A DNA stretch of 34,165 nucleotides from Candidatus Rokubacteria bacterium RIFCSPLOWO2_02_FULL_73_56 (GCA_001788495.1 MGCF01000007.1:1-34165), one strand, 5' to 3'; shown: positions 2,877-26,033, counted from the first letter of the stretch. Notes: generated by a model not told the origin, from the letters alone. A program made the numbers and translations.

Positions 2877-6586
<3,710 letters not shown>

Positions 6587-7870: not shown

Positions 7871-7945
7871 CGTCGAGGCCGGGGCCGCAAGGGGCAGCCG
7901 GTATGGGCTGGAGAGGCTCCGGGGACCTTGGACCCGGCAGGCAGC
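7871..7945 (+). ncRNA. possible structured 5' leader (two adjacent hairpins), family unknown
   Basis: CAGCC (7895-7899) pairs with GGCTG (7906-7910) around loop GGTATG; CCGGG (7919-7923) pairs with CCCGG (7933-7937). Purine-rich unpaired GCAAGGGG and GCAGGCAGCAACGG flank them. Confidence 0.3.
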
Positions 7946-8322
7946 AACGGACTCGGGAGAGCGCCCAGCGGGGCGACCCCCTGCGTTGTGCGGGCTTCGC
8001 GCTCCTGCTCGCCGCCGCGCTCCTCTCGCTCGTCACTCCCGTCCTGGCCGCGCACCCCCAGGACTCGCAGGACCCGCCCACGCACGAGCGAGCGGTCTTG
8101 GAGACGCCCGACGCCGAGCAGAACGCCTGCATCCGCGCCGGGCGCCGCGCGTGGGAGCCCGGCGCCGAGCAGGTCGTCGTCACCGCTCAGCCGGCCGCCA
8201 CCGAGGGCGCCCTCGCGATCATCCCGAGCCTGACGGGCACGACGCTCGGCGAGGGCGAGGAGCAGCTTCCGGCCCCGGTCGTCCCGGAACGGATCAAATG
8301 GGACAAGCGCGGGGCGGCCTGA
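7903..8322 (+). CDS. small exported protein of unknown function; start uncertain
   Basis: ORF open to TGA at 8320-8322; hydrophobic segment CAGFALLLAAALLSLVTPVLAAHP looks like a signal peptide, followed by an acidic mature region. Ends one nucleotide before the next ATG (8324). Confidence 0.5.
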   Translation: MGWRGSGDLGPGRQQRTRESAQRGDPLRCAGFALLLAAALLSLVTPVLAAHPQDSQDPPTHERAVLETPDAEQNACIRAGRRAWEPGAEQVVVTAQPAATEGALAIIPSLTGTTLGEGEEQLPAPVVPERIKWDKRGAA

Positions 8323-8323
8323 G

Positions 8324-11300
8324 ATGAGACCCCTCCGCCTCGTCGCCCTCCTCGCCGCCTTGCTCGCCGCCCCCGCCGCCGCCCAGGGACCGCTCCCGGC
8401 GCCGGTCTCCCGCTGGAGCTTCGACGAGGCGGGCGGGAGCGCGGTGCTCGACGCCACGGGCACCGGCAACACCGGCGCGCTCGTCGGCATCGTGACCCGC
8501 GTGCCGGGGCTCATCGGCAACGCGGTCAGGTTCGACGGGCCGGTCGGGCGCGTCGAGATCCCCTCGAGTCCGAGCCTGGTGAGGTCGGGTGGGCACGTGA
8601 CGTTCGAGGCCGTCGTCTACGTCGACGGACCCGCCCCCGCCGCCAACGCCGCGGCGGACGGGCTGAACGTGATCGCCGCCAAGACGCAGAGCGGCTTCCA
8701 CGAGTACGGCTTCTTCCTCCAGTCGGGCACCGCCACCGTGGTCTGGACCGTCGCCGACGACGGCGGCAACGGCCGTCTGGCCGCGCCCGCGCCCCTCAGC
8801 CTCAAGCGCTGGCACCACCTGCTCGGCACCTACGACGGCGACCTCCAGAAGCTCTACGTGGACGGCGCCCTCGTCGCCTCGGCCGTTCGCGGGCCCGATT
8901 TGCTCGACGGCTCCGGGCCCGTCGTGGTCGGAGACTACGCGGCGCTCGACTTCCTGCAGGGGCCGATTTTCGGCACCGTGGACGTGGCCGCCGTCTACGA
9001 CGAGCCCGTGGACGCGGCCACCGCGCGGGCGCTCGCCCAGGCGGCGCTGAACGTCCGCGGCTACGTGAGCAACCTGGCCGGCGCGAGCGTGTCGGTGATC
9101 GATCCGGCCACGGGCAGCCTCCTCGCCACCATTCCGGTCGGGGCGGAGCCGCACGGCGTGGCCCTCACGCCGGACGGCACGCGGGCCTACGTGGCCAACT
9201 TCGCGGACGACACCGTCTCCGTGATCGACACGCGCAGCAACATGGTCGTCGGAACGCTCTTCGGATTTTCGGGCCCCGTGAGCATCACGATTGCCGCCGA
9301 CGGCAGCCGCGTCTACGTGGCGAGCCGCTCGGGCGACTTCGTCACCGTCCTCGACGCGGCCACGAACGGCGTCCTGCAGACCGTCTTGCTGCCCCCCGGG
9401 TCGCGGCCGTCGTTCATGGCGCTCTCGCCCGACGGTGACCAGCTCTGGGTCACCCACGAGCTCGACGCCGGCATCTCGATCGTGGACACGGCGACCTACG
9501 CGGTCACGTCCGCTTCGCCGCCGGGGCCGGCCGCCGAGATCGCGCTCGCGTCCGACGGCGCCCGCGCCTACGCGACGGGCTTCTTCCACGACCAGCTCTG
9601 GATCATCGACACCCTGAGCCTCACGACGCTCTCGCTCCCCGTCGGCGTCGCCCCGCACGGTGTCGCGCTCACGCCCGACGGCGCCCGCGCCTATGTGGCG
9701 AACCGGGGCACGACCGACCTGGTCCCCGTCCTGTCGAACAACACGGTGTCCGTGATCGACACCGCGACGGCCACCGTGCTCACGACGATCAGCGCCGGGC
9801 TCGGGTTCGGTCCGGAGTCGGTGGCGATCAGCCCGGACGGCACGCGCGTCTACGTGACCGCGCTCTTCTCCGACAGCGTGTCGGTCATCGACACGGCGAG
9901 CAACACCGTCGTCGGCACGATCCCGGTGGGCGCGATGCCCGCCCACATCGCCCTCGGCCCCGCCGCCGCCCTGGCGCCGCCGCCGCCGGTCACCACCGGC
10001 GCGATCCTCGGCCACGTGCGCGACAACTTCGGCAACCCGATCGGCGGCGCCACCGTCCAGCTCAACGCCGACCTCGTCGGCGGCACCTATGCGACCGTCA
10101 CGACCGCGGTGGACGGGAGCTACGCCTTCTCCGGCGTGATCCCGGGGACGTACCGGGTCAGCGCCCAGGCCGACGGCTACGCGACGCAGTGGTACAACGG
10201 CAAGTCGGTCCACCACCTGAGCGACCACGTCGGCGTCACCGCGGGTGCGACGACGAGCGGCATCGACTTCGCGCTCGTCGCGGGCGCCGGCGGCATCGGC
10301 GGCCGCGTGACCGACGGGGCGGGCAACGGCCTCGCGGGCGTCCCCGTGAGCATCCACCTGGCGACCGGCGGCTACGTGCTGAGCGCGCTCACCGACGCCG
10401 CCGGCTACTACACGACCGGGCTGCGCCTGGGTCCGGGCTTCTACAAGGCGCAGGTGGACACGAACGGCTTCGTCCAGCAGTGGTACAGCGGCGCGGCGAC
10501 CTTCGACACGGCGAGCGCGATCCCCGTGTCGGGCGGCAGCGTCACGCCCGGCGTCGACTTCGCGCTCGCCGGGGGCGCGGCGCGCATCGCCGGCACCGTG
10601 ACGCTGGCGGGCTCCGGCGCGCCGCTCGCCGGCATCCAGATCGACGTCCTCGACGCCGCCACGAGCGCGGGCGTGGCCGGGGCGCAGACGGGCCCGGACG
10701 GGACGTACGCGACGAACCAGAGCCTCGCCCTCGGGCCGTACCTGGTCCGCGCGAGCGGCCCGGGCGTGGAGCCGCAGACGCTCGGCCCGTTCATGCTCGC
10801 GGCCGGCACGACGCTCACGGTCGATTTCGTGATGGCGCCGGGCGGGACCATCACGGGCACCGTGCGCCGCGCCGCCGACTTCGCGCCCGTCGCCGGCGCG
10901 ATCGTCGAGGTCTACGACGCCGTCTCGGGCCTCTGGGTCGCCGGCAGCTTCATCACGCAGGCCGACGGGAGCTACGCGACGACGGGCCTCGCCCCCGGGC
11001 AGTACAAGGTCCGCGCGCGGACGCTCTCCGGGCTCGCGGCCCGGTACTACGTGGACTCGGCGACGATCGCCGGGGCGACGCCGGTCACCGTGAGCGCGGG
11101 CGCGACCACGCCCGGCGTGGACTTCGCGCTGGCGGCGGGCGGCGGCATCGTCGGCACGGTGACGAGCGGTGCCACGCCGCTCGGCGCCGTGAGCGTCGAG
11201 GTCTACGACTTCGCGACCAACGCGTGGCTCGATGCGGCCCAGACGGCGCCCGACGGCACGTACACGTTCGAGCGGCGCCTCGCGCCCGGCGCCTACAAGG

Positions 11301-14300
11301 TCCGCGCGCGCGCCGCGGGCTACGCCACCCAGTTCTCGAACGGCGCGCAGGCCTTCAACGCGGCCGCCGGGGTCGTCGTGGCCGCCGCCGTCGACACCCC
11401 CGTGAACTTCGACCTCACGCCGGGCCGCTCGATCACGGGCACGGTGCGGAGCAGCGGGATCCCGCTGGCCGGCGCGCTCATCGGCGTCTACGACAGCAAC
11501 AACCAGTGGGTCGAGGGCTTCTTCACCTCGGGAGCCGACGGCACGTACACGACCGAGGGCCGGCTCAAGGGCGGCGTGAGCTACAAGGTCCAGGCGCAGC
11601 TCTCCGGCTACGCCACCCAGGTGTACAACGGCCAGCGCGCCGTCAACGCGGGCACCCTCGTGGCCGTGGGGGCGACCGATGTCGGCGGGATCGACTTCGC
11701 GCTCGTGCCGGGCGGCGGCTTCACGGGCACGGTCCGGGACACGTTCGGCAACGCGATCGCCGGGGCGATCGTGGACCTCTTCGACGCCGTGTCGGGCGCC
11801 TTCCTGCAGGGCGGCTTCGTCACCCGGGCCGACGGCACTTACGACACGGGGCGCCTGCTCACGGGGAGCTACAAGGTCAAGGCCCGGGTCGTCGCGCCGC
11901 AGTCGTTCGTGGACACGTTCCACACCACCGTGGTGGACGGCAGCGGGCTCGACCTCCGCACCGCCACGACGGTGACCGCCGTCGCCGGCACGGACCTGCC
12001 GAGCGTGGACATCGCCCTGCCGCCGGGCGGCAGGATCGCGGGGACGATCCGCACCCGTGGCTCGGGCCTCGCGATCGCCAACGCCCTCGTGGTCGCGTCG
12101 CGGCTCCAGGCCAACAACTTCTCCGGCACCTTCTCCACCCGGACGGACGCGACCGGCGCCTACGAGCTCCGGGGGCTGCGCGACGGCGAGTGGGTCCTGC
12201 GCGTCGAGGCCGCCGGCCACCAGGTGGGCCACCACAGCGGCAGTCCCGACGCCACCGTCCCGGACAACGCCGCGGCCACGCCCATCAAGATCACCGGCGC
12301 CGGCACCGTGAGCGCCGTGGACCTGAACCTCGCGCCGGGGGGCGGAAGCATCAGCGGCCGCGTGACGCGGATCGGGAGCGGCACCCCCGTGCCCACCAAT
12401 ACGCAGGTCCAGGCCCTGATCGGCGCGGGCAGCGTGTTCCCGCGCGCCAATTTCGTCACCGGGGCCGGCACCGACGGCAACGGCAACTACACGATCTCGG
12501 GCCTGCCGCCCGGTCAGTACCTGGTCCAGGCTGCGAGCACGGGCGCGACGGCCGTGGGCTGGTATCCGACCGAGGCGATTTCCGCCGCCTCGGCGTTCTC
12601 GGTCACCGTGACGGACGGCGCGACGACGGCCGGCATCGACTTCGCCGTGCCGACCTCGCTCCGGACCATCAGCGGCACGGTCAGGGACACGAGCGGCAAC
12701 CCGATCCGCTTCGGCACCGTCGGCGCCGTCAACCCGTTCTTCCAGTTCACCATCCGCGGCGCGGCGCTGAACGGCGACGGCACCTACACGATCGGCGGCC
12801 TGCCGCCCGGCAAGTATCTCGTCCGGGCGACGACCGAGACGACCTACGAGCAGCGGATGTACCCCGACGAGACCGTCGTGCCCGCGGGGACGCCGGTGGA
12901 CGTCACCGTGGCCGGCCAGAGCGGGATCGATCTCGTCCTGCCCGCCACCGGCAGCACGATCGCCGGGCGCGTGCTGACCCTGAGCGATCCCGACAACCCG
13001 CTCTCGCCGCTGGTCCCGGTGCCCGGCGTGCAGGTCAGCGTGCGCAACTTCACCGACAACAACGCCGGGAGCGCGATCACCCAGCTCGACGGGACCTACC
13101 TCGTCCGCGGCGTGCCACCGGGCGAGTACAAGCTCCGGATGCAGAACGGCCCCGACACCCTCCGGACGCCTCACGGCCCGGGCTTCACGATCCGCTACTA
13201 CACCGCGAGCGGCACCGGCGCGGCCATCTTCGACGACGCAAGCTTCGTCCACGTCGACCCGGGCTCGACCGTGACGGGCATCGACCTCACCGTTGCCCCG
13301 GCGACGGGGCGCATCACCGGCACGGTGACCGCCGAGGACACGGGCGCGGCCGTGGTCAACGGCGCCGTTGCGATCCGCGAGTCCACGAGCGGCGCGATCG
13401 TCGGGACCGCGGTGACGCGGGCCGACGGGACCTTCGTCGTGGACAACCTCGCCCCCGGCAGCTACAAGCTCCGCGCCTCGGCACCTGGCTTCGCCGCGCA
13501 GTGGTGGTCCGGCCAGGACACGCGCGAGGCGGCCGACGAGATCGCGGTCGCCGCGGGCACGGTCGGCGGCGTCGACTTCGTCCTGACGCCGAGCCAGGCC
13601 GCCTTCAGCGGCTTCGCGTTCGACACGGCCAGCCAGCCGCTCAGGGACGTCGCGATCACGCTCTACGACGCCGCGACCTTCGGCGTGGACGCCGACGGCC
13701 TGGTGACCGGCTTCGTCACGGGCGTGGGCGTCACCGACTCCCAGGGGCGCTTCGTCGCCGACAACATCAAGCCCGGCAGCTACCTCGCCCTGGCCCGGGC
13801 GCTGGGCTACGCGCGCGTGTACCACGGCCAGCGACCCGACGCCGCCAGCGCCGCGCTCTTCCCGATCACCGTGACGAGTCCGCCGGGTCCGGACGCGCCG
13901 TCGGTGACCTTCACCATGACGCGCACGTCCGACGTCCGGGGGACGATCAGCTACACGGGCCCGCAGGTTGGGGCGCTCAGGATCGGCCTCTTCTGCGACC
14001 CCGGGCTGACGGAGCGCGTGTACGGTCTCGTCGTCCCGTCGCCGGTCTTCCCCCAGGCCTACCAGTTCGGCTCGCCCGCGCCCGACACCCGCGGCCTCCT
14101 GCCCGCGGCCGTCGCCTGCCCGGCGAGCGAGGCGTACTTCGTGGCCGCGTTCGTGGACAGCACCCCCAACGGCGCGCGGGACGCGACCGAGCCCGCGGGC
14201 GCGGTCGGCGGCGTGCCGCTGGCGGAAAACGCCACGGCCAGCGGCACCGACCTCACGCTGACCGACCCGGCCGTCACCTTCGCCGACGTCTCCATCACCA

Positions 14301-17300
14301 AGACGGCGTTCCCGATCGTGCCGATCCTGCTCGGCGGTCAGCTGACCTACACGCTGACCGTCGGCAACGCGGGACCCGGCATCGCCAGCGGCATCGCGCT
14401 CTCCGATCCCCTGCCCGCCGGCACGGCCTTCGCCGCGATCAGCGTGCCCCAGGGCGTGTGCGTCACGCCGCCGGTGGGCGAACCTGGCACCGTGAGCTGC
14501 GCCCTCGGCGCCCTCGTCGCCGGCGCGAGCAAGACCGTCACGCTCACCGTGGCGACGACCGCGACGGGCTCCATTGACAACACGGCCACGGTGACCACGA
14601 CGTCCACCGATCCGAATGGCGCCAACAACAGCGCGAGCGCTCCCGCCTCCGTCTTCGAGACGGGACGCATCACCGGCCGGGTCACCGCCACCGACGGCGT
14701 GTCGCCGATCGCCGGCGCCTTCGTCGAGGTGTTCGACGCCGGCACGGGCGCCTGGGTCGCCGGCGGCATCGTCACGGCCGGCGACGGGACCTACACGACC
14801 GGCGAGCTCACCCCGGGGCAGTACAAGGTCCGCGCCAGCGCGTCGATCCCCGGCCTCGCCGCGACGTTCTACGCGGGCGCCCCGAACCTGACCCTGGCGA
14901 CGGCGGTGACGGTGACGACGGGCGCCACGACGCCGAATGTGGACATCGCGCTCGCGGCCGGCGGCGGCATCGTCGGCACCGTCAGCAGCGGCGGCACGGC
15001 CATCGCGTTCGCGGGCATCGAGGTCTACGACGCCACGACCGGCTTCTGGGTGGACAGCACCCAGACCTCGACCGACGGGCTGTACACGTTCTCGCAGCGC
15101 CTGGCGCCCGGCACCTACAGGGTCCGCGCGCGGGCGAGCGGCTACGCGACCGTGTTCTCGAACGGCGTGCAGGCGTTCAGCGCGGCGGCGAACGTCCTCG
15201 TGGCCGCCGGCGCCGACACCACGGTGGACTTCAACCTCACGGCGGGCCGCTCGATCACGGGCACGGTGGCGAGCGGCGGCGTCCCACTGCAGGGCGCCTG
15301 GATCACCGTCTTCGACGCCAACAACCAATGGGTCGAGGGCGTGGCTTCCGCGGCCGATGGCACGTACACGACCGAGGGGCGCCTGCTGCCCGACCGAAGC
15401 TACAAGGTCCAGGCACAGCTCGACGGCTACGTCACCCAGGTCTACAACGGCCAGCGCACGCTCGGCGCCGGCACTCTCGTGGCCGTGGGCACGACCGACG
15501 TCGCCGGGATCGATTTCAGCCTGGCGCAGGGCGGCGGCTTCAAGGGCACGGTCAGGGACACGAACGGCACCCCGATCGGCGGGGCGATCGTGGATCTGTT
15601 CGACCCCGTGACGGGCTTCTTCCTCGCGGGCGGGCTCCCCACGGCGGCCGACGGCACCTACGACACCGGCCGGATCCTCGGCGGTGCCTACAAGGTGAAG
15701 GCCCGCGTCCCGGCGCCCCTGTCTTTCGTGGATACCTTCCACACCACCGTGCCCGACGGCAGCGGCGTGGACCTCAGGACGGCGACGACGGTGACGGCCG
15801 TCGCCGGCCAGGACGTCCTCGGCGTGGACATCGCGATGCCGCCGGGCGGGCGGATCAGCGGGACGATCCGGACGCGCGGCACGCTGGCGCCGATCGCCAA
15901 CGCGTCGGTGTTCGTGGGGCGGGTCGCGGCGAGCAACTTCTCCGGGGCCTTCTTCGTGCGGACCGACGCCGCCGGCACCTTCGAGGTCCGCGGGCTGCGC
16001 GACGGCGAGTGGACCGTCCGCGTCGAGGCGGCCGGCCACATGGTCGGCTACTCCAGCGGCGTCCCGGACGCGCCCGGCCCCGACGGCGGTGTGGCCCTGC
16101 CGATCGCGATCAGCGGCGCCGGCACGGTGAGCCCCGTGGACCTGCACCTGACCCCGGGTGGAGGCCGGATCAGCGGCCGCGTCACGCGGAGCGGCGGCGG
16201 CGCCGTGCCCGCGGGCACGCAGATCCAGGCCCTCATCGGCGCTGGCAGCATGTACCCGCGGGGCAACTTCGTGACCGGCGTCGGCACCGACGGCAACGGC
16301 AACTACACGATCTCCGGGCTCCCCCCGGGCGTCTACACGCTCCAGGCCGTCGGCAACCAGTTCGCGAACGGCACGGCGATGGGCTGGTACCCGACCGCGG
16401 CGACCTCGCCCGCCTCGGCGGTGCCCGTCACCGTGGTGGACGGCGCCACGACCGCGGGCGTGGACTTCTCGGTGCTCGGCCTGACCGGCGGCGCCTCCCC
16501 GCGGACGATCAGCGGCACCGTGCGGGACGTGAACGGCAACCCGATCCGCTTCGGCACCGTCGTCGCCATCGATCCCTTCTTCCAGTTCGGGATCCGGGGC
16601 ACCGCGCTGAACGGCGACGGGACCTACACGATCCCGACCCTGCCGCCCGGCAGGTACCTCGTCCGCGCGCAGACCGAGACGACCTACGAGCAGCGGATGT
16701 ACCCGGACGAGACCGTCGTGCCCGCGGGCTCGCTCGTGGACGTCACGGCGGGCAACCAGGTCGGGATCGACCTCGCGCTGCCGGCGACGGCGGGGACGAT
16801 CCAGGGCCGCGTCATGACCCCGAGCGATCCGGCCAACCCGCTCTCGCCGCTGGTCCCGGTGCCCGGCGTGCAGGTGAGCGCGCGCAGCTTCTTCGACAAC
16901 AACGTCGGGAGCGCCATCACCCGGCTCGACGGAACCTACCTGATCCGCGCGCTGGCGCCGGGCGACTACATCATCCGGATGCAGAACGGCCCGGACACGG
17001 TCCGCGAGCCGGCCGGGCCGGGCTTCGCGATCCGCTACTACACGGCGAGCGGCACCGGGGCGGCGATCTTCGACGACGCGAGCTTCGTCCACGTCGCCGC
17101 CGGCCAGAGCACCACGGACATCGACCTCGTCCTCGCCCCGGCAACGGCGAGCCTCGCGGGCACCGTGACCGTGCAGGGCACCGGCGCGCCCGTGGTCGGC
17201 GGCGCCGTCTCGATCCGCGAGGCGGCCTCCGGCGCGGCCGTCGCGGTCGCGGTGACCCGGGCCGACGGCTCGTTCCTCGCCAACAACCTGGCGCCCGGCA

Positions 17301-20300
17301 GCTACATGCTCCGCGCCTCCGCGCCCGGCTACGCCGCCCAGTGGTCGTTCGGCAAGGACACGCTGACGGCGGCCGACGCGATCACGGTGACGACCGGCGC
17401 CGTGAGCAACGCCAACTTCGTCCTGACGCCGAGCCAGGCCGCCTTCACCGGCCGGGCCTTCGCGACCGACGGCGAGCCGCTCAGGAACGTCGGCATCGTG
17501 CTGTTCGACGCCGCGACCTTCAGCCTGGACGCGCTCGGGCGGACGACGGGCTTCGTCACCGGCACCAACGTGACGGACTCCCAGGGCCGCTTCATCGCGA
17601 CCAATATCAAGCCGGGCGCCTACGTCGCGCAGGCGCGCGCGCTCGGCTATGCGCGGGTGTTCGCGGGCGGGCGTCCGGACGCGGCAGGGGCGCTGCTCTC
17701 GACGATCACGGTGACGAGCCCGCCGGACCCGGACGCGCCGGCGGTGAACTTCAACATGGCGCTGACGGCCGACATCCAGGGGGCAATCGCCAACGCCGGC
17801 ACGCAGACCGGGGCGCTCAGGATCGGCCTCTTCTGCGACGCCACGCTGGTCCAGCCGGTGTACACGCTTGCGATCCCGGCGCCGAGCTTCCCGCAGGCTT
17901 ACCAGTTCGGCCGGCCGGGCCCGGACACCCGCGGCCTGCTGCCGTCGAGCCTCGCCTGCCCGGTGAGCCAGCAGTACTTCGTCGGCGCGTACGTGGACAC
18001 GAACTCCAATGGGGTGCAGGACGCGACGGAGCCGTCCGGCACGTTCGACGGCGCGACCGCGGTCGGGGTGGCCGTGGCGGAGGGCGCGACGCTCGTGGGC
18101 CGCGACTTCGCGCTCGTCGAGGATCTCGGCGCCGGCGGCACGACGACGACGGCCCTCGCGATCGTCTCGACCTACGTGCCGGCGGGCGGCGGGCTGGCGA
18201 CGCTCGGCGACATCCGGATCGACGAGCACGGCGCGCGGGCCCTGTCGACGGCGGGCCGCATCCGGGTGACGCTGCCGGGCGGCCTCGCGTTCTCCATGCT
18301 CCCCGTGGTCTCGACCGGGCCGAGCTGGGGCCTCGGCATCGTCCAGACCGGCCCCGACGCCCCGCGGCTCGAGAGCAGCGGCGCGGTGTTCTCGTTCGCC
18401 CTCGCGTCGCGCTCGAGCGGCGGCGCCGCGTCCATCATCGTTTCCGGGATGCTCGTGACGGCCTCGACGGGCTTCGTCCCCGACGGCGCTGCCGTCCCCG
18501 TCTCCGTCGCGGTCGACGCGAGCCTGCCGAACGGGCTCACGCCCGAGTCGGTCCAGGTCGCGATCTTCCTCGCGCCCCCGCCCGACCCCGTCTTCACCGG
18601 GATCGCGATCGACAGCAACGCGGCGGGGCTCGGCGTGACGCGCACGGTCGTGCTCAACGGCCTCAACTTCGGCCAGCTCGATTTCACGAACTCCGACCTG
18701 AGCCTGCGCGACACGATCGACTTCGGCCCGGGCATCACGGTGATCGGGGCGCCCTCCGTCAGCCCCGACGGGAAGCAGATCACGGTCACGATCCAGGTGG
18801 ATCCCAACGCGGACGCCGGGCCTCGCACCGTGTCGATCATCGACAGGGGCCCGGACGGTCAGCAGACGATCATCACGGCCACGCTGCCCGGCGGCGGCAG
18901 CTTCAGCGTGGACCCCCTGCCCGTCGTGACCGCGGCGGGCACGGGCGAGACGGGCGCGGGCCCGCTCTTCGCCGATCTGAAGAAGCAGACGCTCTACGTC
19001 GGCGGGAGCAACTTCAGGCCGCCCACGACGACGCCGTCGAACCTCGTCGTCCAGGTGGGCGGTGGCGGGATCACGGTTGACCCGACGAGCGTCGTGTTCC
19101 TGTCGGACATGCGCCTCGCGGTCGAGGTGGACGTGGCCGCTGGCGCCGACGCGCTCTCGCCGCGGACCGTGACGGTGACGAATCCCGACCTCGGCACGAC
19201 CACGAGCGCGGCGATCCTCGCAATCGCGCCGCGCCCGCCCGACGCGCCCGAGGGCCTGCCGGCGCCGAAGAACTCCGGCTCGTCCACGTCGACGACGCCG
19301 CCCTCGCTCTCCTCGATCAGCCCGGCCGCCGCGCGCACGGGCGCCTCGGTGACGATCAGCGGCACCAACCTGGGGAGCGCGACGGCGAGCAAGGTCACGT
19401 TCACGGCGGCGAACAACGCCAAGGTCACGGTGAGCCCGACCAGCGGCGGCGCCTCGAGCCTCGCGGTGCTGGTCCCGGCGACGGCGGTGGACGGCCCGGT
19501 GACGGTCGCGAACGGCACGCTCCAGAGCAGCAACTCGCTCGCGTTCACGGTCACGAACCCGCGGCCGTCCGGGGTGAGCCCGGGCAGCGCCTTCCAGGGC
19601 GACACGCTCACGCTCGACGTCACCGGCACCAAGTTCCAGAGCGGGATGACGGTGCAGCTCAGCCCGTCCACCGGCGCGACGCTCGGCGCGGTGATCTTCG
19701 TGGACGCGACCCGCGTCCGGATCCCCGTCACGCTCGCCGCGAACGCACCGACCGGGCTCAGGAGCGTGGTCGTCACGAACCCCGACGGCGGCACGGCAAC
19801 GCTCGCCAACGCGTTCGAGGTGAAGCTCAGATCGGCGACGACGATGACGCTGGCCCTGCGGCGGGCCGACGGCACGCCGCTCGACGTCCCGGCCTGGCTC
19901 CCCAGCGTGGACGGCGTCAGCGTCACGCTCGACGCGACCGGCCGGTGCACGGCCAAGACGGTGACGCCGACCCTCCTGATCGTGGAGGCCCAGCTCGCCG
20001 GCACGTCGCTGCCGCCGCAGCTCACGTTCACGATCACGCCGTCGGCGATCAAGGGCACCGCGGCGAACGAGGACTGCGAGATCGACCCCGTGACGCTGCT
20101 GCCGACCGCGGTCCCGACCAACGACTTCGGCATCGGCCAGGTCGCAACGATGCCGAGTCTCACCGCCCCGCTCTCCGTGACCGTCGGCGGCGCCAACGGC
20201 GTCTACCAGGCCCAGCTCGCCTCCTGGGACTGGGGTGGCAAGGTGCGCATCGAGGTGACGGACAGCCCGACCTCGCCGACGGTGGCGGGCAGCCTGCGGC

Positions 20301-21508
20301 TGCCGGTGGACGCGGACGGCGACGACCTGCCCGACGTGTACGAGACCAACCTGGTCGCCGGCGTGGACAACGCCGACGCCACCGGCGTCAACGTCCTCGA
20401 CGCCGGCAAGCAGGACCAGAACGCCAACGGCCTGAGCGACCGCGACGACCGCTTCGCGCGCGACGGCCTCACGAACTTCGAGAAGTACCGCGGCGTGTAC
20501 CTGCGCGGGCCGCTCAACGGGACCGCGAGCGGGCCGATGCTCGACCACGTCAGGCTCGGCGCGGGCAAGCGGAACCTCTTCGTCCGCGGGCGCGGCTTCA
20601 GCACGGACCCGAACGTCCCGGCCGGCTCGTGCGGCGTGGACAACACGGGCAGGCCCATCGCGCAGGACGCCGCGCTCCTCGCGCGGTTCCCGTGCCCGGC
20701 CTTCGAGGTGGGCGACGCCTACCGCGAGCTCGGCATCCGGGTGTGGGACGTGGCGGCCTCGTTCACGGGCGCCTCCGTCCTGCCGACCAAATCGTACGCC
20801 GACCCGACCAAGCCGACGCTCGACCTGGCGACGGTGACCTACGACGCGGTCAACTGCGCCGGTGGCCAGACGTGCGACCATTCGGGCAAGACCGGCATCC
20901 GCCAGTGGCAGTTCCCGACCCTCGGCTACAGCACCTTCGGGTCGGCCACGACGTACGGCGACGCGCGGGTGTTCGCCCGGGCCGTGAAGGGCTACTTCAC
21001 CGACCGGCCATACCTCCACCAGGAGAACCTGACGGGCAAGTACCTGCCCATGGCCACCACCGGCGGGGTCCCGATGCTCGCGCCCGTCACGACGGTCTGC
21101 GACAGCGGCTCGGGGGGCTCGGACAACGGCGTCGCCGACTCGGGTGAGTGCAAGGACGCCGACGGCCTGCTCGGCGGCGACGTCTTCGTGGCGGGGCAGT
21201 TCAGCCTCTCCGTGAGCGCGATGGACGTGAACAACGACGACTGCGTCGAGCTGCCGTTCGTCGCCGACCCGACGACGCTCACGGCGTGCGACGCCAGGGC
21301 GGCGTCGGCGTCGGGCCCGCAGGCGACCTTCCGCCAGGTGGTGCGCGCGATCGTCACGCACGAGCTGGGCCACGCCCTCGGCGTGAACGTCCACACGACG
21401 GACGTGACGGACGTCATGTACCAGTACTCGATCAACTGGACGCGCGACAACCACTTCTCGTCGCAGGCGGGGCAGCTCATCCAGGTCCACAACAAGGGGC
21501 TCCAGTGA
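8324..21508 (+). CDS. giant (4394 aa) exported multidomain protein: LamG-like, YVTN beta-propeller, about 25 CarboxypepD_reg/Cna-B-like modules, DUF11, IPT/TIG-like repeats, acidic Ca-binding-like motif, C-terminal HExxH metalloprotease-like domain
   Basis: Uninterrupted 13.2-kb ORF; N-terminal MRPLRLVALLAALLAAPAAAQG signal peptide; repeated I-x-G-x-V...G-x-Y...L-x-P-G-x-Y-x-V-x-A modules; THELGHALGVNVH near the C-terminus. Confidence 0.9.
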   Translation: MRPLRLVALLAALLAAPAAAQGPLPAPVSRWSFDEAGGSAVLDATGTGNTGALVGIVTRVPGLIGNAVRFDGPVGRVEIPSSPSLVRSGGHVTFEAVVYVDGPAPAANAAADGLNVIAAKTQSGFHEYGFFLQSGTATVVWTVADDGGNGRLAAPAPLSLKRWHHLLGTYDGDLQKLYVDGALVASAVRGPDLLDGSGPVVVGDYAALDFLQGPIFGTVDVAAVYDEPVDAATARALAQAALNVRGYVSNLAGASVSVIDPATGSLLATIPVGAEPHGVALTPDGTRAYVANFADDTVSVIDTRSNMVVGTLFGFSGPVSITIAADGSRVYVASRSGDFVTVLDAATNGVLQTVLLPPGSRPSFMALSPDGDQLWVTHELDAGISIVDTATYAVTSASPPGPAAEIALASDGARAYATGFFHDQLWIIDTLSLTTLSLPVGVAPHGVALTPDGARAYVANRGTTDLVPVLSNNTVSVIDTATATVLTTISAGLGFGPESVAISPDGTRVYVTALFSDSVSVIDTASNTVVGTIPVGAMPAHIALGPAAALAPPPPVTTGAILGHVRDNFGNPIGGATVQLNADLVGGTYATVTTAVDGSYAFSGVIPGTYRVSAQADGYATQWYNGKSVHHLSDHVGVTAGATTSGIDFALVAGAGGIGGRVTDGAGNGLAGVPVSIHLATGGYVLSALTDAAGYYTTGLRLGPGFYKAQVDTNGFVQQWYSGAATFDTASAIPVSGGSVTPGVDFALAGGAARIAGTVTLAGSGAPLAGIQIDVLDAATSAGVAGAQTGPDGTYATNQSLALGPYLVRASGPGVEPQTLGPFMLAAGTTLTVDFVMAPGGTITGTVRRAADFAPVAGAIVEVYDAVSGLWVAGSFITQADGSYATTGLAPGQYKVRARTLSGLAARYYVDSATIAGATPVTVSAGATTPGVDFALAAGGGIVGTVTSGATPLGAVSVEVYDFATNAWLDAAQTAPDGTYTFERRLAPGAYKVRARAAGYATQFSNGAQAFNAAAGVVVAAAVDTPVNFDLTPGRSITGTVRSSGIPLAGALIGVYDSNNQWVEGFFTSGADGTYTTEGRLKGGVSYKVQAQLSGYATQVYNGQRAVNAGTLVAVGATDVGGIDFALVPGGGFTGTVRDTFGNAIAGAIVDLFDAVSGAFLQGGFVTRADGTYDTGRLLTGSYKVKARVVAPQSFVDTFHTTVVDGSGLDLRTATTVTAVAGTDLPSVDIALPPGGRIAGTIRTRGSGLAIANALVVASRLQANNFSGTFSTRTDATGAYELRGLRDGEWVLRVEAAGHQVGHHSGSPDATVPDNAAATPIKITGAGTVSAVDLNLAPGGGSISGRVTRIGSGTPVPTNTQVQALIGAGSVFPRANFVTGAGTDGNGNYTISGLPPGQYLVQAASTGATAVGWYPTEAISAASAFSVTVTDGATTAGIDFAVPTSLRTISGTVRDTSGNPIRFGTVGAVNPFFQFTIRGAALNGDGTYTIGGLPPGKYLVRATTETTYEQRMYPDETVVPAGTPVDVTVAGQSGIDLVLPATGSTIAGRVLTLSDPDNPLSPLVPVPGVQVSVRNFTDNNAGSAITQLDGTYLVRGVPPGEYKLRMQNGPDTLRTPHGPGFTIRYYTASGTGAAIFDDASFVHVDPGSTVTGIDLTVAPATGRITGTVTAEDTGAAVVNGAVAIRESTSGAIVGTAVTRADGTFVVDNLAPGSYKLRASAPGFAAQWWSGQDTREAADEIAVAAGTVGGVDFVLTPSQAAFSGFAFDTASQPLRDVAITLYDAATFGVDADGLVTGFVTGVGVTDSQGRFVADNIKPGSYLALARALGYARVYHGQRPDAASAALFPITVTSPPGPDAPSVTFTMTRTSDVRGTISYTGPQVGALRIGLFCDPGLTERVYGLVVPSPVFPQAYQFGSPAPDTRGLLPAAVACPASEAYFVAAFVDSTPNGARDATEPAGAVGGVPLAENATASGTDLTLTDPAVTFADVSITKTAFPIVPILLGGQLTYTLTVGNAGPGIASGIALSDPLPAGTAFAAISVPQGVCVTPPVGEPGTVSCALGALVAGASKTVTLTVATTATGSIDNTATVTTTSTDPNGANNSASAPASVFETGRITGRVTATDGVSPIAGAFVEVFDAGTGAWVAGGIVTAGDGTYTTGELTPGQYKVRASASIPGLAATFYAGAPNLTLATAVTVTTGATTPNVDIALAAGGGIVGTVSSGGTAIAFAGIEVYDATTGFWVDSTQTSTDGLYTFSQRLAPGTYRVRARASGYATVFSNGVQAFSAAANVLVAAGADTTVDFNLTAGRSITGTVASGGVPLQGAWITVFDANNQWVEGVASAADGTYTTEGRLLPDRSYKVQAQLDGYVTQVYNGQRTLGAGTLVAVGTTDVAGIDFSLAQGGGFKGTVRDTNGTPIGGAIVDLFDPVTGFFLAGGLPTAADGTYDTGRILGGAYKVKARVPAPLSFVDTFHTTVPDGSGVDLRTATTVTAVAGQDVLGVDIAMPPGGRISGTIRTRGTLAPIANASVFVGRVAASNFSGAFFVRTDAAGTFEVRGLRDGEWTVRVEAAGHMVGYSSGVPDAPGPDGGVALPIAISGAGTVSPVDLHLTPGGGRISGRVTRSGGGAVPAGTQIQALIGAGSMYPRGNFVTGVGTDGNGNYTISGLPPGVYTLQAVGNQFANGTAMGWYPTAATSPASAVPVTVVDGATTAGVDFSVLGLTGGASPRTISGTVRDVNGNPIRFGTVVAIDPFFQFGIRGTALNGDGTYTIPTLPPGRYLVRAQTETTYEQRMYPDETVVPAGSLVDVTAGNQVGIDLALPATAGTIQGRVMTPSDPANPLSPLVPVPGVQVSARSFFDNNVGSAITRLDGTYLIRALAPGDYIIRMQNGPDTVREPAGPGFAIRYYTASGTGAAIFDDASFVHVAAGQSTTDIDLVLAPATASLAGTVTVQGTGAPVVGGAVSIREAASGAAVAVAVTRADGSFLANNLAPGSYMLRASAPGYAAQWSFGKDTLTAADAITVTTGAVSNANFVLTPSQAAFTGRAFATDGEPLRNVGIVLFDAATFSLDALGRTTGFVTGTNVTDSQGRFIATNIKPGAYVAQARALGYARVFAGGRPDAAGALLSTITVTSPPDPDAPAVNFNMALTADIQGAIANAGTQTGALRIGLFCDATLVQPVYTLAIPAPSFPQAYQFGRPGPDTRGLLPSSLACPVSQQYFVGAYVDTNSNGVQDATEPSGTFDGATAVGVAVAEGATLVGRDFALVEDLGAGGTTTTALAIVSTYVPAGGGLATLGDIRIDEHGARALSTAGRIRVTLPGGLAFSMLPVVSTGPSWGLGIVQTGPDAPRLESSGAVFSFALASRSSGGAASIIVSGMLVTASTGFVPDGAAVPVSVAVDASLPNGLTPESVQVAIFLAPPPDPVFTGIAIDSNAAGLGVTRTVVLNGLNFGQLDFTNSDLSLRDTIDFGPGITVIGAPSVSPDGKQITVTIQVDPNADAGPRTVSIIDRGPDGQQTIITATLPGGGSFSVDPLPVVTAAGTGETGAGPLFADLKKQTLYVGGSNFRPPTTTPSNLVVQVGGGGITVDPTSVVFLSDMRLAVEVDVAAGADALSPRTVTVTNPDLGTTTSAAILAIAPRPPDAPEGLPAPKNSGSSTSTTPPSLSSISPAAARTGASVTISGTNLGSATASKVTFTAANNAKVTVSPTSGGASSLAVLVPATAVDGPVTVANGTLQSSNSLAFTVTNPRPSGVSPGSAFQGDTLTLDVTGTKFQSGMTVQLSPSTGATLGAVIFVDATRVRIPVTLAANAPTGLRSVVVTNPDGGTATLANAFEVKLRSATTMTLALRRADGTPLDVPAWLPSVDGVSVTLDATGRCTAKTVTPTLLIVEAQLAGTSLPPQLTFTITPSAIKGTAANEDCEIDPVTLLPTAVPTNDFGIGQVATMPSLTAPLSVTVGGANGVYQAQLASWDWGGKVRIEVTDSPTSPTVAGSLRLPVDADGDDLPDVYETNLVAGVDNADATGVNVLDAGKQDQNANGLSDRDDRFARDGLTNFEKYRGVYLRGPLNGTASGPMLDHVRLGAGKRNLFVRGRGFSTDPNVPAGSCGVDNTGRPIAQDAALLARFPCPAFEVGDAYRELGIRVWDVAASFTGASVLPTKSYADPTKPTLDLATVTYDAVNCAGGQTCDHSGKTGIRQWQFPTLGYSTFGSATTYGDARVFARAVKGYFTDRPYLHQENLTGKYLPMATTGGVPMLAPVTTVCDSGSGGSDNGVADSGECKDADGLLGGDVFVAGQFSLSVSAMDVNNDDCVELPFVADPTTLTACDARAASASGPQATFRQVVRAIVTHELGHALGVNVHTTDVTDVMYQYSINWTRDNHFSSQAGQLIQVHNKGLQ
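8396..9043 (+). other. LamG/concanavalin A-like domain (within giant CDS)
   Basis: SRWSFDEAGGSAVLDATGTGNTGALVG...GNAVRFDG...VTFEAVVYVDG...LKRWHHLLGTYDGDLQKLYVDGALVAS...VVVGDY: LamG-3-like pattern. Confidence 0.8.
9050..9958 (+). other. YVTN-type beta-propeller domain (within giant CDS)
   Basis: Repeated VSVIDPATGSLLATIPVGAEPHGVALTPDGTRAYVAN / VSVIDTASNTVVGTIPVGAMPAHIALGP blades. Confidence 0.9.
9995..10849 (+). repeat. three CarboxypepD_reg/Cna-B-like modules outside the duplicated block (within giant CDS)
   Basis: ILGHVRDNFGNPIGGATVQL...GYATQWYNGK; IGGRVTDGAGNGLAGVPVSI...VQQWYSGA; IAGTVTLAGSGAPLAGIQIDV...LGPYLVRASG. Confidence 0.75.
10850..14270 (+). repeat. super-repeat copy 1: ordered block of 11 beta-sandwich modules (within giant CDS)
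   Basis: Starts ITGTVRRAADFAPVAGAIVEVYDAVSGLWVAG; runs through GRSITGTV...NNQWVEG, SFVDTFHTTV, TYEQRMYPDETVVPAG, NPLSPLVPVPGVQVS, RYYTASGTGAAIFDDASFVHV, SQAAFSG, GALRIGLFCD, FPQAYQFG. Same order in copy 2. Confidence 0.88.
14276..14660 (+). other. DUF11/TIGR01451-like module between the two super-repeat copies (within giant CDS)
   Basis: VSITKTAFPIVPILLGGQLTYTLTVGNAGPGIASGIALSDPLPAGTAFAAISVPQGVC...VSCALGALVAGASKTVTLTVATTATGSIDNTATVTTTSTDPNGANNSA is a textbook DUF11 repeat. Confidence 0.92.
14669..18125 (+). repeat. super-repeat copy 2: same 11-module order as copy 1 (within giant CDS)
   Basis: Starts ITGRVTATDGVSPIAGAFVEVFDAGTGAWVAG and repeats every landmark of copy 1 at an offset of about 3.82-3.84 kb, including a 42-nt identical stretch (12994-13035 = 16834-16875). 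Confidence 0.88.
18926..19840 (+). other. IPT/TIG-like Ig repeats (within giant CDS)
   Basis: PSLSSISPAAARTGASVTISGTNLGSATASKVTF...; PSGVSPGSAFQGDTLTLDVTGTKFQSGMTVQLS...GLRSVVVTNPDGGTATLANAFEV; an earlier degenerate copy ends PRTVTVTNPDLGTTTSAAIL. Confidence 0.75.
20309..20491 (+). other. acidic Ca-binding-like (TSP3/EF-hand-like) segment (within giant CDS)
   Basis: DADGDDLPDVYETNLVAGVDNADATGVNVLDAGKQDQNANGLSDRDDRFARDGLTNFEKY: two DxDxDxLxD-type loops. Confidence 0.6.
20492..21508 (+). other. putative C-terminal zinc metalloprotease domain (within giant CDS)
   Basis: THELGHALGVNVHTTDVTDVMYQYSINW: HExxH, downstream Gly and His, and a DVM Met-turn-like motif. Confidence 0.6.
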
Positions 21509-23448
21509 GCCGCCGGACGCTCGCTCCCCTGCTCGTCGCGCTGGCGCTCGTGCTCGCCGGCGCGGCCGCGGCGCGCGCCCAGGCGCCCCCGGCGGGCCCG
21601 CCCCTCAAGGCCACCATCGTGCTCGGGCAGGGCGCGCCCGCCGACGGCGTCTTCCCCGCGGGGGTGCCGGTCCCGATCGTCGTCCAGATCGAGAACGTGA
21701 GCGGGGCGGACGTGGCGACCACGGAGGGTTTCTCGTCCACCGATTTCTTCCGCCGCCTCTACTTCGTGGACCCCCAGGGCGGAATCGTCACCAACAAGGT
21801 CGAGGAGCAGATCCACACCGACAGCCGCGTGTTCATGTGCCTCTCGCGGCGGGGGGCGCTCCAGCGTCCGGCGATCCCCGTCGCGCCGATCGAGGTGCTG
21901 GTCGGGACCGGCCCCGGCGCGCCGGGCAACTTCTTCCGCGAGTACGAGATCGATGACGCGCGGAGGTTCTACGACCTCTCCCGCCCGGGCCGGTACAGCG
22001 TCACGGCCCGCATCCCGCTCCTCGTGTTCACGCTCTCCGATCCCGCCGCGGTCATCGACGACTGCGACCAGCTCCCGGGCCTGGTGGCGGCGAACGTCGC
22101 GGCGCTGACCGGCCGCGCGGAGTTCACGATCGTGTCCAACACCCTCGAGTTCGAGGTGGACAGCCTGCCGCCGCAGCCGCCAGCGACGACGGCGACGGCG
22201 GCGCCGGCCCCGGGCCCGTCGGGCTGGACGCGGCAGAGCGTCACCGTGAGCTTCACGGCCACGAGCCCGAGCAACATCCCCATCCAGCGGATCGTCATCC
22301 AGACCTCCGGGGCGCAGCCCGGTGTCCAGGACCTGTCGGGGACGAAGGGCTCCGTCACGATCACGGCCGACGGGCAGACGTCCGTCGCCTTCCACGCCGA
22401 GGACATCGCCGGGAACATCGAGGCGACGCAGGTCCTGACGGTGAAGGTGGACGGCACCCAGCCGATCGTCACCTGTGAGGCGCCCGACACGGGCTGGCAC
22501 GCGACCGACGTCACGCTGGCCTGCACGGCCCAGGACCCCGCCTCCGGCCTCGCGAACACGTCCGACGCCAGCTTCAGCCTCGCGACGGCCGTGCCGGCCG
22601 GCACCGAGACCGACGCGGCGACGACGGACGGCCGCACCGTCTGCGACGTCGCGGGCAACTGCGTCACGAAGACCGTCGGCGGGATCAAGGTGGACAAGAA
22701 AGCGCCGGCCATGACGCTCACCTCGCCCACGCCCGACGCCGTCTACGACGTGGGCCAGGTGGTGCTCGCCGGCTACGGGTGCACGGACGGCGGCTCGGGC
22801 CTCGTGGCCTGCGCGGGCCCGGTGGCCAGCGGCGCGGCGATCGACACGGCGACGCCGGGCGTCACGACCTTCACCGTCAACGCCATGGACGCGGTCGGCA
22901 ACGCCTCGAGCGCGTCCGTGACCTATCGCGTCGGGTCCCAGGACACGACGCCGCCGGTCCTGACGGTTCCGAGCAGCGTCACCGTGGACGCGACGAGCCC
23001 GGCGGGCGCCCTCGTGACGTACGCGGTCTCGGCCACCGACGACGTCACGCCCTCGCCGACCGTCGCGTGCGCGCCCGTGTCGGGGAGCACGTTCCCCATC
23101 GGGACGACCACCGTCTCGTGCACCGCGACGGACGCGGCGGGCAACACCACGAGCAAGAGCTTCTCGGTGATCGTCCAGGCGGCGGCGGCCCAGGTCGCCA
23201 ACCTGATGGACACGGTCAGGAGCTTCAACCTCAAGCAGGGGATCACCAACAGCCTGGACGCGAAGCTCCAGAACGTCGAGGACGCGCTGACCTCGGCCAA
23301 GAAGGGCAGCGTCACGTCGACCTGCAACCAGATGAGCGCGTTCATCAACGAGACGAAGGCCCAGTCGGGCAAGGCGCTGACGGTCGACCAGGCCACCCAG
23401 CTGCAGTCGGCAGCGACCAGGATCAGGGCCGTCATCGGCTGTCCGTGA
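21505..23448 (+). CDS. exported protein with Ig-like regions, HYR domain and C-terminal FIMAH-like helical domain
   Basis: GTG start at 21505 overlaps the giant gene's TGA (GTGA). Signal peptide TLAPLLVALALVLAGAAAARAQA; PVLTVPSSVTVDATSPAGALVTYAVSATDDVTPSPTVACAPVSGSTFPIGTTTVSCTATDAAGNTTSKSFSVIV (HYR); KQGITNSLDAKLQNVEDAL...QMSAFINETKAQSGKALTVDQATQLQSAA (FIMAH-like). Confidence 0.85.
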   Translation: MSRRTLAPLLVALALVLAGAAAARAQAPPAGPPLKATIVLGQGAPADGVFPAGVPVPIVVQIENVSGADVATTEGFSSTDFFRRLYFVDPQGGIVTNKVEEQIHTDSRVFMCLSRRGALQRPAIPVAPIEVLVGTGPGAPGNFFREYEIDDARRFYDLSRPGRYSVTARIPLLVFTLSDPAAVIDDCDQLPGLVAANVAALTGRAEFTIVSNTLEFEVDSLPPQPPATTATAAPAPGPSGWTRQSVTVSFTATSPSNIPIQRIVIQTSGAQPGVQDLSGTKGSVTITADGQTSVAFHAEDIAGNIEATQVLTVKVDGTQPIVTCEAPDTGWHATDVTLACTAQDPASGLANTSDASFSLATAVPAGTETDAATTDGRTVCDVAGNCVTKTVGGIKVDKKAPAMTLTSPTPDAVYDVGQVVLAGYGCTDGGSGLVACAGPVASGAAIDTATPGVTTFTVNAMDAVGNASSASVTYRVGSQDTTPPVLTVPSSVTVDATSPAGALVTYAVSATDDVTPSPTVACAPVSGSTFPIGTTTVSCTATDAAGNTTSKSFSVIVQAAAAQVANLMDTVRSFNLKQGITNSLDAKLQNVEDALTSAKKGSVTSTCNQMSAFINETKAQSGKALTVDQATQLQSAATRIRAVIGCP

Positions 23449-23527: not shown

Positions 23528-24100
23528 ATGTCCAGGACAAGAGTCGTCGGGCTTCTGATAATCGCGGCGATGGCCGCGTCGATCCTCGCCCCCGGCCTCG
23601 CGAGCGCCGGCGGCGGCTTCGCCCCGCCCCCGCCGGGATTCGTGCTCAACACGACCAAGGACGTGTCGGCCGTCGTCGTGCTGGATCCCCACGGCCCCGT
23701 GGTCTTCGGCACCCCGGCGACCGCGACGGGCACGTTCGGCGCGATCACCTTGAACCGCAAGCACTTTGCCCCGGCGTCCGCGGTCTTCAAGGTGCCCGGG
23801 TTCGGCAGCCTGGGCGAGCTCGCGCTCGGCTGCGACCTCTCGGCCTCGACCGCACGGTTCGTCACGGTGCCGCTGAACGGCTGGATGTCCCAGGAACTCC
23901 TCGAGATTCTCTTCCAGCAGGTCGGGATCACGATCGGACCGCTGACCGCGCCGGTCCTGGTCCCCGCGGTCACGCAGATCGTGAGCCAGCAGTGCTCGCC
24001 CGCTCCGCCACCGGACGACACGGCGTTCAACCCTGGCTTCCTGGTCATGGAAGTCAAGATCGGCTTCTTCGCTGCGCCTGGCACGCCGATCCCGAAGTAG
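23528..24100 (+). CDS. small exported protein of unknown function (190 aa)
   Basis: ATG at 23528 with GAAAGGAG upstream; signal peptide MSRTRVVGLLIIAAMAASILAPGLASAGGG; no family recognised. Confidence 0.75.
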   Translation: MSRTRVVGLLIIAAMAASILAPGLASAGGGFAPPPPGFVLNTTKDVSAVVVLDPHGPVVFGTPATATGTFGAITLNRKHFAPASAVFKVPGFGSLGELALGCDLSASTARFVTVPLNGWMSQELLEILFQQVGITIGPLTAPVLVPAVTQIVSQQCSPAPPPDDTAFNPGFLVMEVKIGFFAAPGTPIPK

Positions 24101-24167: not shown

Positions 24168-26033
24168 ATGACGCCTCGCCGTCCACCGGCCGTCGGGCCG
24201 CTCGCCCTTCGCGCCCTCGCCCTCGGGGCCCTGGCGCTGACGCTCCTGGCTTGCCAGCAGGCCCCGCTCGAGGGGATCGTCAGCTCGAAGACGTACCGGC
24301 CCGAGATCGTCGGGCGCGTGGGCGTGGTCGCGGCGGGGCGGCACTTCGCCGCGGAGGCGGGGCTCCGCATGCTGGCGCGCGGGGGCAACGCCGTGGACGC
24401 GGGCGTCGCGGCGACGTTCGCCGCGGCGGTGACCGAGATCTCCCACTTTGGCCTCGGCGGCGAGGTGCCGATCGTGCTCTACCTCGCCGACCGGCGCGAG
24501 GCGGTCGTGATCAGCGGCCAGGGCACGGCGCCGGCGGCGGCGTCCCCCGAGGCCTTCCGCCGCTTCCGCTTGATCCCGCCGAACGGCCCGTCGGCCGGGA
24601 CGATCCCCGCGGTCGTGGACGCGCTCGCGCTGGCGCTCGCCGAGTTCGGCACGCTCTCGCTCGCCGAGACGCTCGCGCCTGCGATCGAGCTGGCCGACGG
24701 CTTCCCCTGGTACGACTTCCTGACGCGCTATCTACGGCCCGAGCTGGAGAAGATGTTCGCCTTCCCGAGCGGCGCCCGCGTGTATCTGCCGAACCGGACG
24801 ATCCCCGCGGTCGGCAGCATCTTCCGCCAGCCGGACCTCGCGCGGACGCTGCGCGCCCTCGTCGAGGCCGAGCGCCAGCACGCGGCGGAGGGCCGGAAGG
24901 CCGCGATCTCCGCGGCGCGCGACCGCTTCTACCGCGGCGACGTCGGCCAGCGGATCGCCGCCGCCGTGCAGCAGGCCCAGGGCCTCATGACGGCGGCCGA
25001 CCTCGCTGGCTACCGGGGCCGCATCGAGCCGCCGACCCGGGGGACCTTCACGACGCGCCACGGGACGTTCGAGGTGTTCAAGACCGGCTTCTGGGGTCAG
25101 GGCCCGGTCCTGCTCCAGGCCCTCGGGCTCCTCCAGGGGTTCGACCTCGAGCGGATGGGCCACAACTCGGCCGCGTACATCCACACGGTGACGGAGGCGC
25201 TCAAGCTGGCGCTCGCCGACCGCGACGGCTTCTACGGCGATCCCGACTTCGCGAAGGTGCCGACGCGTGGTCTCCTCGCGCCGGCCTACGCGGAGGCGCG
25301 CCGCGCCCTGATCGATCCCGCTGTCGCGAGCGCCGAGGTGCGCCCGGGCGACCCCTGGAAGTTCGAGGGCTCGGCCGGGCCCGCGCGCCGGCTCCGTGTC
25401 GCGCGCGCGACCCCCGCGAGCTCCGAGGATCGGGCGCTGCCCGAGCTCGACACGACGACCGTCGACGTCGCCGACGCCCGGGGCAACCTCTTCTCCGCCT
25501 CGCCCTCGTCGGCGTGGTTCTCGGGCGGCGTGTTCATCGCCGGCGACACGGGCGTGCCGCTCGGCAACCGCATGCAGGCCTTCGTCCTCGAGGCGGGGCA
25601 CCCGAACGTCGTCCAGAGCGGCAAGCGGCCGCGCACGACGCTGACCCCGACGGTCGTGCTCCGCGACGGCAAGCCCTTCCTGGCGCTCAGCAGCCCCGGC
25701 GGCGACACCCAGGAGCAGCAGGCGCTCCAGGTGCTCCTGAACATCGCGGTCTTCGGCATGCGCCCGCAGGAGGCCGTCGAGGCGCCGCGGTTCAACACCG
25801 GCCACTACCGGGAGAGCTTCCGCCGGCACGCCTTTCGCGGCGGCGTCCTGCAGGTCGAGAGCCGGATCCCCGCGGGCGTGGTCGAGGCGCTCGAGCAGCG
25901 CGGGCACAAGGTGGCGGTCATTGGCTCGTTCATGATGAACACGGGGACGGTCGTGGCCGGCGTGGACCCGGAGCACGGCACGCTCTTCGGCGCCGCGGAC
26001 GTCCGGCGCCAGCGCTTCGTCGTCGGCTGGTAG
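24168..26033 (+). CDS. gamma-glutamyltransferase-family lipoprotein
   Basis: Lipobox LTLLACQQ; HFAAEAGLRMLARGGNAVDAGVAATFAAAVTE; DTTTVDVADARGNLFSASPS (nucleophile Thr region); RPRTTLTPTVVLRDGKPFLALSSPGGDTQEQQALQVLLNI. Confidence 0.88.
   Translation: MTPRRPPAVGPLALRALALGALALTLLACQQAPLEGIVSSKTYRPEIVGRVGVVAAGRHFAAEAGLRMLARGGNAVDAGVAATFAAAVTEISHFGLGGEVPIVLYLADRREAVVISGQGTAPAAASPEAFRRFRLIPPNGPSAGTIPAVVDALALALAEFGTLSLAETLAPAIELADGFPWYDFLTRYLRPELEKMFAFPSGARVYLPNRTIPAVGSIFRQPDLARTLRALVEAERQHAAEGRKAAISAARDRFYRGDVGQRIAAAVQQAQGLMTAADLAGYRGRIEPPTRGTFTTRHGTFEVFKTGFWGQGPVLLQALGLLQGFDLERMGHNSAAYIHTVTEALKLALADRDGFYGDPDFAKVPTRGLLAPAYAEARRALIDPAVASAEVRPGDPWKFEGSAGPARRLRVARATPASSEDRALPELDTTTVDVADARGNLFSASPSSAWFSGGVFIAGDTGVPLGNRMQAFVLEAGHPNVVQSGKRPRTTLTPTVVLRDGKPFLALSSPGGDTQEQQALQVLLNIAVFGMRPQEAVEAPRFNTGHYRESFRRHAFRGGVLQVESRIPAGVVEALEQRGHKVAVIGSFMMNTGTVVAGVDPEHGTLFGAADVRRQRFVVGW

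Follow-up and report, generated by a model that had tools for sequence, protein, structure and literature searches.

It is common for domain repeats to gain several domains in one step, seven in the case of nebulin, with a two-domain unit the commonest overall (PMC1553488), and titin is organised in 11-domain super-repeats for which a length of about 4 nm per domain has been measured (PMC7427331). Here we describe a super-repeat organisation of the titin/nebulin kind, with a series of distinct domains that recurs in unchanged order, in a giant modular protein encoded by Candidatus Rokubacteria bacterium RIFCSPLOWO2_02_FULL_73_56; the likeness is one of organisation only. The gene lies within a stretch of 34,165 nucleotides (GCA_001788495.1, MGCF01000007.1:1-34165), which was analysed at its full length and is referred to below as the window. 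It occupies positions 8324-21508 of the plus strand, encodes a putatively secreted product of 4,394 amino acids in one unbroken frame and has homologues in three other genomes. An initial interpretation of the DNA, made without database searches (the sequence-only reading), had singled out an ordered block of eleven modules present twice in this gene and had contrasted it with ordinary repeat proteins, which were said to grow by one or two modules. That generalisation is not supported by the multi-domain expansion documented in the survey of domain repeats (PMC1553488) or by the 11-domain super-repeats of titin (PMC7427331); whole-arm duplication, however striking, belongs to a recognisable class of protein growth. 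The duplicated block itself was borne out, and it provides a clean natural case in which ordered, distinguishable modules of a bacterial giant protein were duplicated in one piece, as seems to have happened twice among relatives.

An eleven-module block present twice

When the protein was split and compared with itself by BLAST, a single continuous off-diagonal was obtained, pairing amino acids 841-2041 with 2114-3328 (1,223 columns, 30 gaps, 65% identity), whereas the best shifted register of the giant protein reached only 28% identity. The result that the sequence-only reading had named as refuting the block, generic similarity among modules with no continuous diagonal, was therefore not obtained. 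The final ~55 residues of this alignment extend into a DUF11 domain on one side, so that the true block comprises amino acids 841-1985 (copy 1, positions 10844-14278) and 2114-3265 (copy 2, 14663-18118), within 10 bases of the limits first put forward (10850-14270 and 14669-18125). The number of modules was also exact, the 13 landmark sequences originally listed falling into eleven modules, some of which carry two. In copy 1 the modules begin at 10844 (m1), 11141 (m2), 11426 (m3), 11714 (m4), 12029 (m5), 12341 (m6), 12659 (m7), 12953 (m8), 13307 (m9), 13595 (m10) and 13928 (m11), and in copy 2 at 14663, 14963, 15248, 15533, 15848, 16160, 16499, 16793, 17147, 17435 and 17768, respectively. Between the copies lies the DUF11 domain (14285-14641; amino acids 1988-2106; Pfam PF01345, E=2.6e-22). 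Three unduplicated modules ahead of copy 1, n1-n3 (9992-10843), had been placed outside the block, and both a matrix of module identities and a module tree agree with that placement.

The same matrix shows that modules at the same position in the two copies are 55-80% identical (mean 68%), whereas other pairs have a mean of 31% and a maximum of 48%; that all eleven best matches should be collinear by chance has a probability of 1/11!, or ~2.5e-8. Module pairs within a copy also average 31%, the same as elsewhere, and the modules had therefore already diverged before the duplication. The block is thus an ordered duplication of heterogeneous modules, as had been claimed. The CarboxypepD_reg profile (PF13620) matched 22 stretches of the giant protein (E=8e-177), and ten of the eleven modules are of this type: m1-m3, m5-m7 and m9 pass the cut-off when run alone, and m4, m8 and m10 match below it. 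The earlier description of all eleven modules as beta-sandwiches needs correcting in that m11 is not a CarboxypepD_reg sandwich; in the window, m11 matched neither PF13620 nor any Pfam profile above noise, and its equivalent in the homologue termed G064 (see below) gave a weak match to DUF2141. We also observed in m11 (13928-14278 and 17768-18118) a sequence of the DxNxNGxxDATE kind, similar to a calcium-binding loop, which is clearest in copy 2 and is present also in G064 and in a further homologue, G019.

Separate copying of modules, or patching by gene conversion, would make silent-site similarity uneven from module to module. At conserved residues, codon identity was uniform, ranging from 0.65 to 0.81 across the eleven modules of the window gene (heterogeneity P=0.34), and was likewise uniform along the block of the G064 gene (P=0.27). 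The whole block was therefore copied in a single event, and piecemeal growth, module by module, is rejected by this uniformity together with the module tree. Overall codon identity between the window copies was 0.73, against 0.63 expected at saturation: the duplication is old yet not saturated. The corresponding values for the two copies in G064 were 0.50 and 0.495, i.e. saturated, so that synonymous divergence is unequal between the two pairs. The window genome is an assembly of 189 contigs in which the genes of two strains might have been joined or a repeat mis-assembled. However, the DNA of the two copies differs at 23% of bases (77% identity), the copies have unique flanks and the DUF11 domain between them, and a comparable arrangement is found in the independent assembly of G064; an artefact of assembly or binning is hardly credible on this evidence and was rejected.

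Relatives, ancestral core and number of duplications

Homologues were sought by querying 57 genomes of the family with the block and 95 genomes of the phylum with the C-terminal region, other phyla being covered by pattern scans and by one further phylum. Among these family and phylum genomes the giant gene is present in three only, namely the window genome, G064 (Candidatus Rokuibacteriota bacterium AR31, QHSL01000081.1; loci L017 and L023) and G019 (locus L019). No relatives were returned when genome contigs were scanned with copy 2 alone, two were returned when the C-terminal alignment served as the query, and a scan of viral contigs with the C-terminal region found none. A fourth homologue, L024, is carried by an 8.1-kb contig (VBAL01000072.1) of a metagenome-assembled genome designated ‘ANGP1’. 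The sequence-only reading had asked for homologues carrying one, two or more copies, and the search found two copies in G064 and one each in G019 and L024.

In G064 the arm has the order DUF11-x1..x11-DUF11-x1..x12, copy 1 being without the terminal module (the m11 equivalent). This homologue resembles the window gene in its ordered core m4-m11, its two blocks with a DUF11 domain between them, a TIG-like region, a C-terminal HExxH domain and the four-gene cassette described below; it differs in having an N-terminal DUF7948 domain and SBBP propeller, a DUF11 domain ahead of copy 1 and four other front modules, as well as in the absence of the terminal module from copy 1 and in its older, saturated duplication. 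G019 and L024 share with the window gene the ordered core and the C-terminal region (and, in G019, the cassette), but have a single copy in which the core begins at m4 after a non-module domain: G019 contains m4-m11, this being the one core match in a whole genome that is 95% complete, and L024, the N-terminus of which is complete, contains m4-m10 and no m11. The order of m4-m10 is thus kept in all four homologues, and m11 is present in three of the four. In the module tree, although many other forks are unresolved, each of m4-m11 forms its own clade across every organism having that module; m1-m3 are confined to the window genome and x1-x4 to G064, so that the place of m1-m3 is taken in relatives by four other modules or by none. 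From the relatives' module order and the module tree, it follows that the ancestral unit is the ancient core m4-m10/11 (m4-m11 at 11714-14278 in copy 1 and 15533-18118 in copy 2), not eleven modules.

This has a bearing on the suggestion, made in the sequence-only reading, that block duplication implies a specific role for each module. Such an implication does not follow, since a single tandem duplication, in frame and ~3.4 kb long, reproduces everything within its limits. The retention of order over evolutionary distance is a better argument for module identity, and it holds for m4-m11 only; moreover, inheritance alone accounts for order by default, and conserved order therefore supports specific roles but does not prove them. 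The suggestion is accordingly supported in part: m4-m11 have distinct conserved identities in the form of position-specific clades, but m1-m3, which were duplicated as well, are absent from relatives.

The core copies pair within genomes, with 71.6% identity in the window and 59% in G064, as against 39-43% between genomes. A tree of the cores likewise recovered the pairs A1+A2 and B1+B2 (100/100 for each), with the single-copy cores C and D between the pairs. Constraining the four duplicated copies to group together was rejected (approximately unbiased test, p-AU 0.003), and A1+B1 or A2+B2 groupings were rejected far more strongly. The boundaries of the blocks are also unlike, m1-m11 in the window and DUF11+x1-x11 in G064, and the two DUF11 domains of G064 are 66% identical, similar to its modules. 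Taken together, the pairing within genomes, the position of C and D, and the differing boundaries and front modules lead us to favour two independent duplications, one in the window lineage and the other in that of G064.

Several observations weigh against this interpretation. A DUF11 domain sits between the copies in both genes and the periods are nearly equal (1,273 amino acids in the window, 1,256 in G064); both features would also be explained by the main alternative, a single ancestral block duplication followed by homogenisation of the copies within each genome, through unequal crossing-over or gene conversion, and by the loss of a copy from G019 and from L024. The domain that follows copy 2 (18119-18601), to which the Pfam profile search gave no name, has a homologue at the corresponding place in G064, behind the second copy, and the window DUF11 is slightly nearer to the second DUF11 of G064 (48% vs 45%), as would be expected of such a shared history. 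The uniform codon identity along the block in both genes is, however, unlike the patchiness of piecemeal conversion, and with front modules unrelated between the two genes, unlike boundaries and a tree that rejects the grouping of the four copies, we regard a shared duplication as unlikely. In addition, trees of the C-terminal region and of the TIG region were weakly supported or of different topology, and the gene may therefore be a mosaic; the G019 gene is truncated at its 5' end by a contig edge; and no more than four homologues are known. Of these, L024 is possibly misbinned, as its tetranucleotide profile fits the Rokubacteria contigs L017, L018 and L019 better (0.51-0.66) than it does two contigs of its own bin (0.32-0.39), in a comparison in which some stretches contain the homologous gene. 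We make no claim of cross-phylum spread of the giant family for this reason.

The giant protein and its secreted cassette

Upstream of the modules, the giant protein begins with a signal-peptide-like N-terminus (by eye), followed by a Laminin_G_3/concanavalin-like domain (8552-9016; amino acids 77-231; PF13385, E=4e-13) and a YVTN/YncE-type beta-propeller (9023-9943; amino acids 234-540; Pfam PF21783, NCBIfam TIGR02276). Downstream of copy 2 and the domain that follows it, three stretches matched IPT/TIG domains (18602-19945; PF01833), and a conserved C-terminal region (19946-21505), common to all four homologues in alignment, has a metzincin-like peptidase domain at its end. All of these features lie on the plus strand, and position-specific GC along the gene is 0.66/0.56/0.97 (GC3 0.97). 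A 4,398-amino-acid open frame on the minus strand (8294-21490) was rejected as a gene on the grounds of the third-position GC of 0.97 and the location of all homology on the plus strand; it is a by-product of 73% GC. A small open reading frame with a possible signal peptide (7906-8322) precedes the giant gene, a single base separating its stop from the giant's ATG.

The C-terminal domain contains the zinc-site motif HELGHALGVNVH (21359-21394), followed by DVMY, which resembles a Met-turn. The pattern D-[VI]-M-[YF] follows the zinc motif in the window, G064 and G019, as a sequence pattern only, and L024 ends earlier. The motif HExxHxxGxxH is exact in G019 (HELGHAVGARH). Protease activity of this domain is likely, but two results speak against a straightforward assignment: the third His is one residue later in the window (HELGHALGVNVH) and in G064 (HELGHLTGVNTH), and the Matrixin profile PF00413 was not passed (22.0 bits vs a cut-off of 24, E=1.6e-4). 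As the score is below the cut-off, the domain is named matrixin-like and not a member of that family. Comparison with solved structures gave a marginal match only (E=0.65).

The giant gene is followed on the same strand by genes for a secreted partner with HYR, OmpL47-type and Ig-like domains (21505-23448), a small secreted protein (23528-24100), found at the same place in G064 and G019, and a secreted gamma-glutamyltranspeptidase (GGT)-family protein (24168-26033; PF01019, E=1.5e-116). The GTG start of the partner overlaps the TGA stop of the giant (CCAGTGAGC; GTGA), with identical bases in G064, and the two genes are likely to be translationally coupled. The order giant, Ig-like partner, small secreted protein, GGT-family protein is the same in all three Rokubacteria genomes, which represent three genera, and the cassette is present in three of the 57 family genomes. 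The partner is confined to these genomes, barring a marginal short match in another genome (G033). The GGT-family product passes PF01019 (390.6 bits vs 27) and fails the NCBIfam gamma-glutamyltransferase equivalog (290.7 bits vs 357.85), so that profile matching places it in the family with no exact enzyme assigned. The cassette proteins of this family are 72-75% identical among the window, G064 (L018) and G019 (L019), all other GGTs of the family genomes being at most 50% identical, and this subgroup is confined to the three genomes having the giant gene. A limited literature search found no published description of the four-gene cassette.

Among neighbouring genes, a zinc-ribbon adenylate cyclase (by eye) lies convergently downstream of the cassette in the window and G019, and the G064 cassette is followed by an RHS-repeat/SpvB-like gene of 1,800 amino acids (L018:2397-7796), none adjoining the cassette in the other genomes. 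Elsewhere in the window there are a thiamine pyrophosphate riboswitch (3804-3914) ahead of a thiC-like gene (named by eye), which is ordinary, and a minus-strand membrane protein (5598-6560) that by eye resembles HTTM/vitamin K-dependent carboxylase relatives.

Proposed role of the arm and comparison with known super-repeats

Our current working hypothesis, which we consider fairly probable, is that the giant gene encodes a matrixin-like secreted metalloprotease with an ordered-core arm. The protein would be exported by its signal peptide, and the LamG domain and propeller would form an N-terminal binding head joined by a long arm of Ig/transthyretin-like domains to the C-terminal TIG and peptidase domains. 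In the window lineage the old ordered core m4-m11 would have gained m1-m3, after which a single in-frame tandem duplication copied all eleven modules and left DUF11 between the copies, a comparable duplication having occurred separately in the G064 lineage. The doubled arm may lengthen reach or double binding sites, keeping the head far from the protease; at ~4 nm per domain, a scale borrowed from titin by assumption, the added eleven modules and DUF11 would give ~48 nm of extra reach, or some 45 nm if the gain is counted as 11-12 domains. The cassette as a whole may act extracellularly, its targets being proteins or gamma-glutamyl peptides.

Alternatively, the block might be a mere spacer of interchangeable modules, its duplication having added length only, with no position-specific roles. 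The free turnover of m1-m3 and x1-x4, the finding that two unlike module sets each give eleven modules and a DUF11 per period, and the equal rates at which both window copies evolve (branches 0.23 and 0.21) are in keeping with this. Yet m4-m10 remain individually recognisable in sequence, and stay in order, at identities of 38-47% across organisms, and amino-acid constraint is unequal among the window modules (homogeneity P=0.001), and we therefore think the spacer explanation doubtful. More speculatively, the two lineages may have reached nearly the same 12-domain period (1,273 and 1,256 amino acids, ~48 nm) independently, from different module sets, through selection for a fixed super-period. 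We consider this improbable; if true, the period would be the bacterial counterpart of titin's ruler, within a secreted protease/GGT system that would be new. The single-copy relatives allow one to ask whether such arms persist because of their length or because of the individual modules in them, and the study also exposes, in uncultured soil bacteria, a four-gene secreted cassette with its own GGT subgroup.

Among described proteins, the very large bacterial proteins with abundant CarboxypepD_reg and DUF11 domains (PMC11573180) are alike in domain content and in being surface or secreted giants; the part of that survey considered here describes no duplicated heterogeneous block, and the window protein falls under the survey's 5,000-amino-acid limit. 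Nebulin and other domain repeats (PMC1553488) share the duplication of several domains at once, but the units quoted comprise two to seven domains from a single family and are mainly eukaryotic, whereas here eleven were duplicated in a bacterium. The A-band super-repeats of titin (PMC7427331) likewise consist of 11 distinct beta-sandwich domains in order, with same-position domains conserved; they are, however, eukaryotic Ig and Fn3 domains in many copies fitted to a filament period, whereas the window protein has two copies, made up of domains from families unrelated to these, and no known filament.

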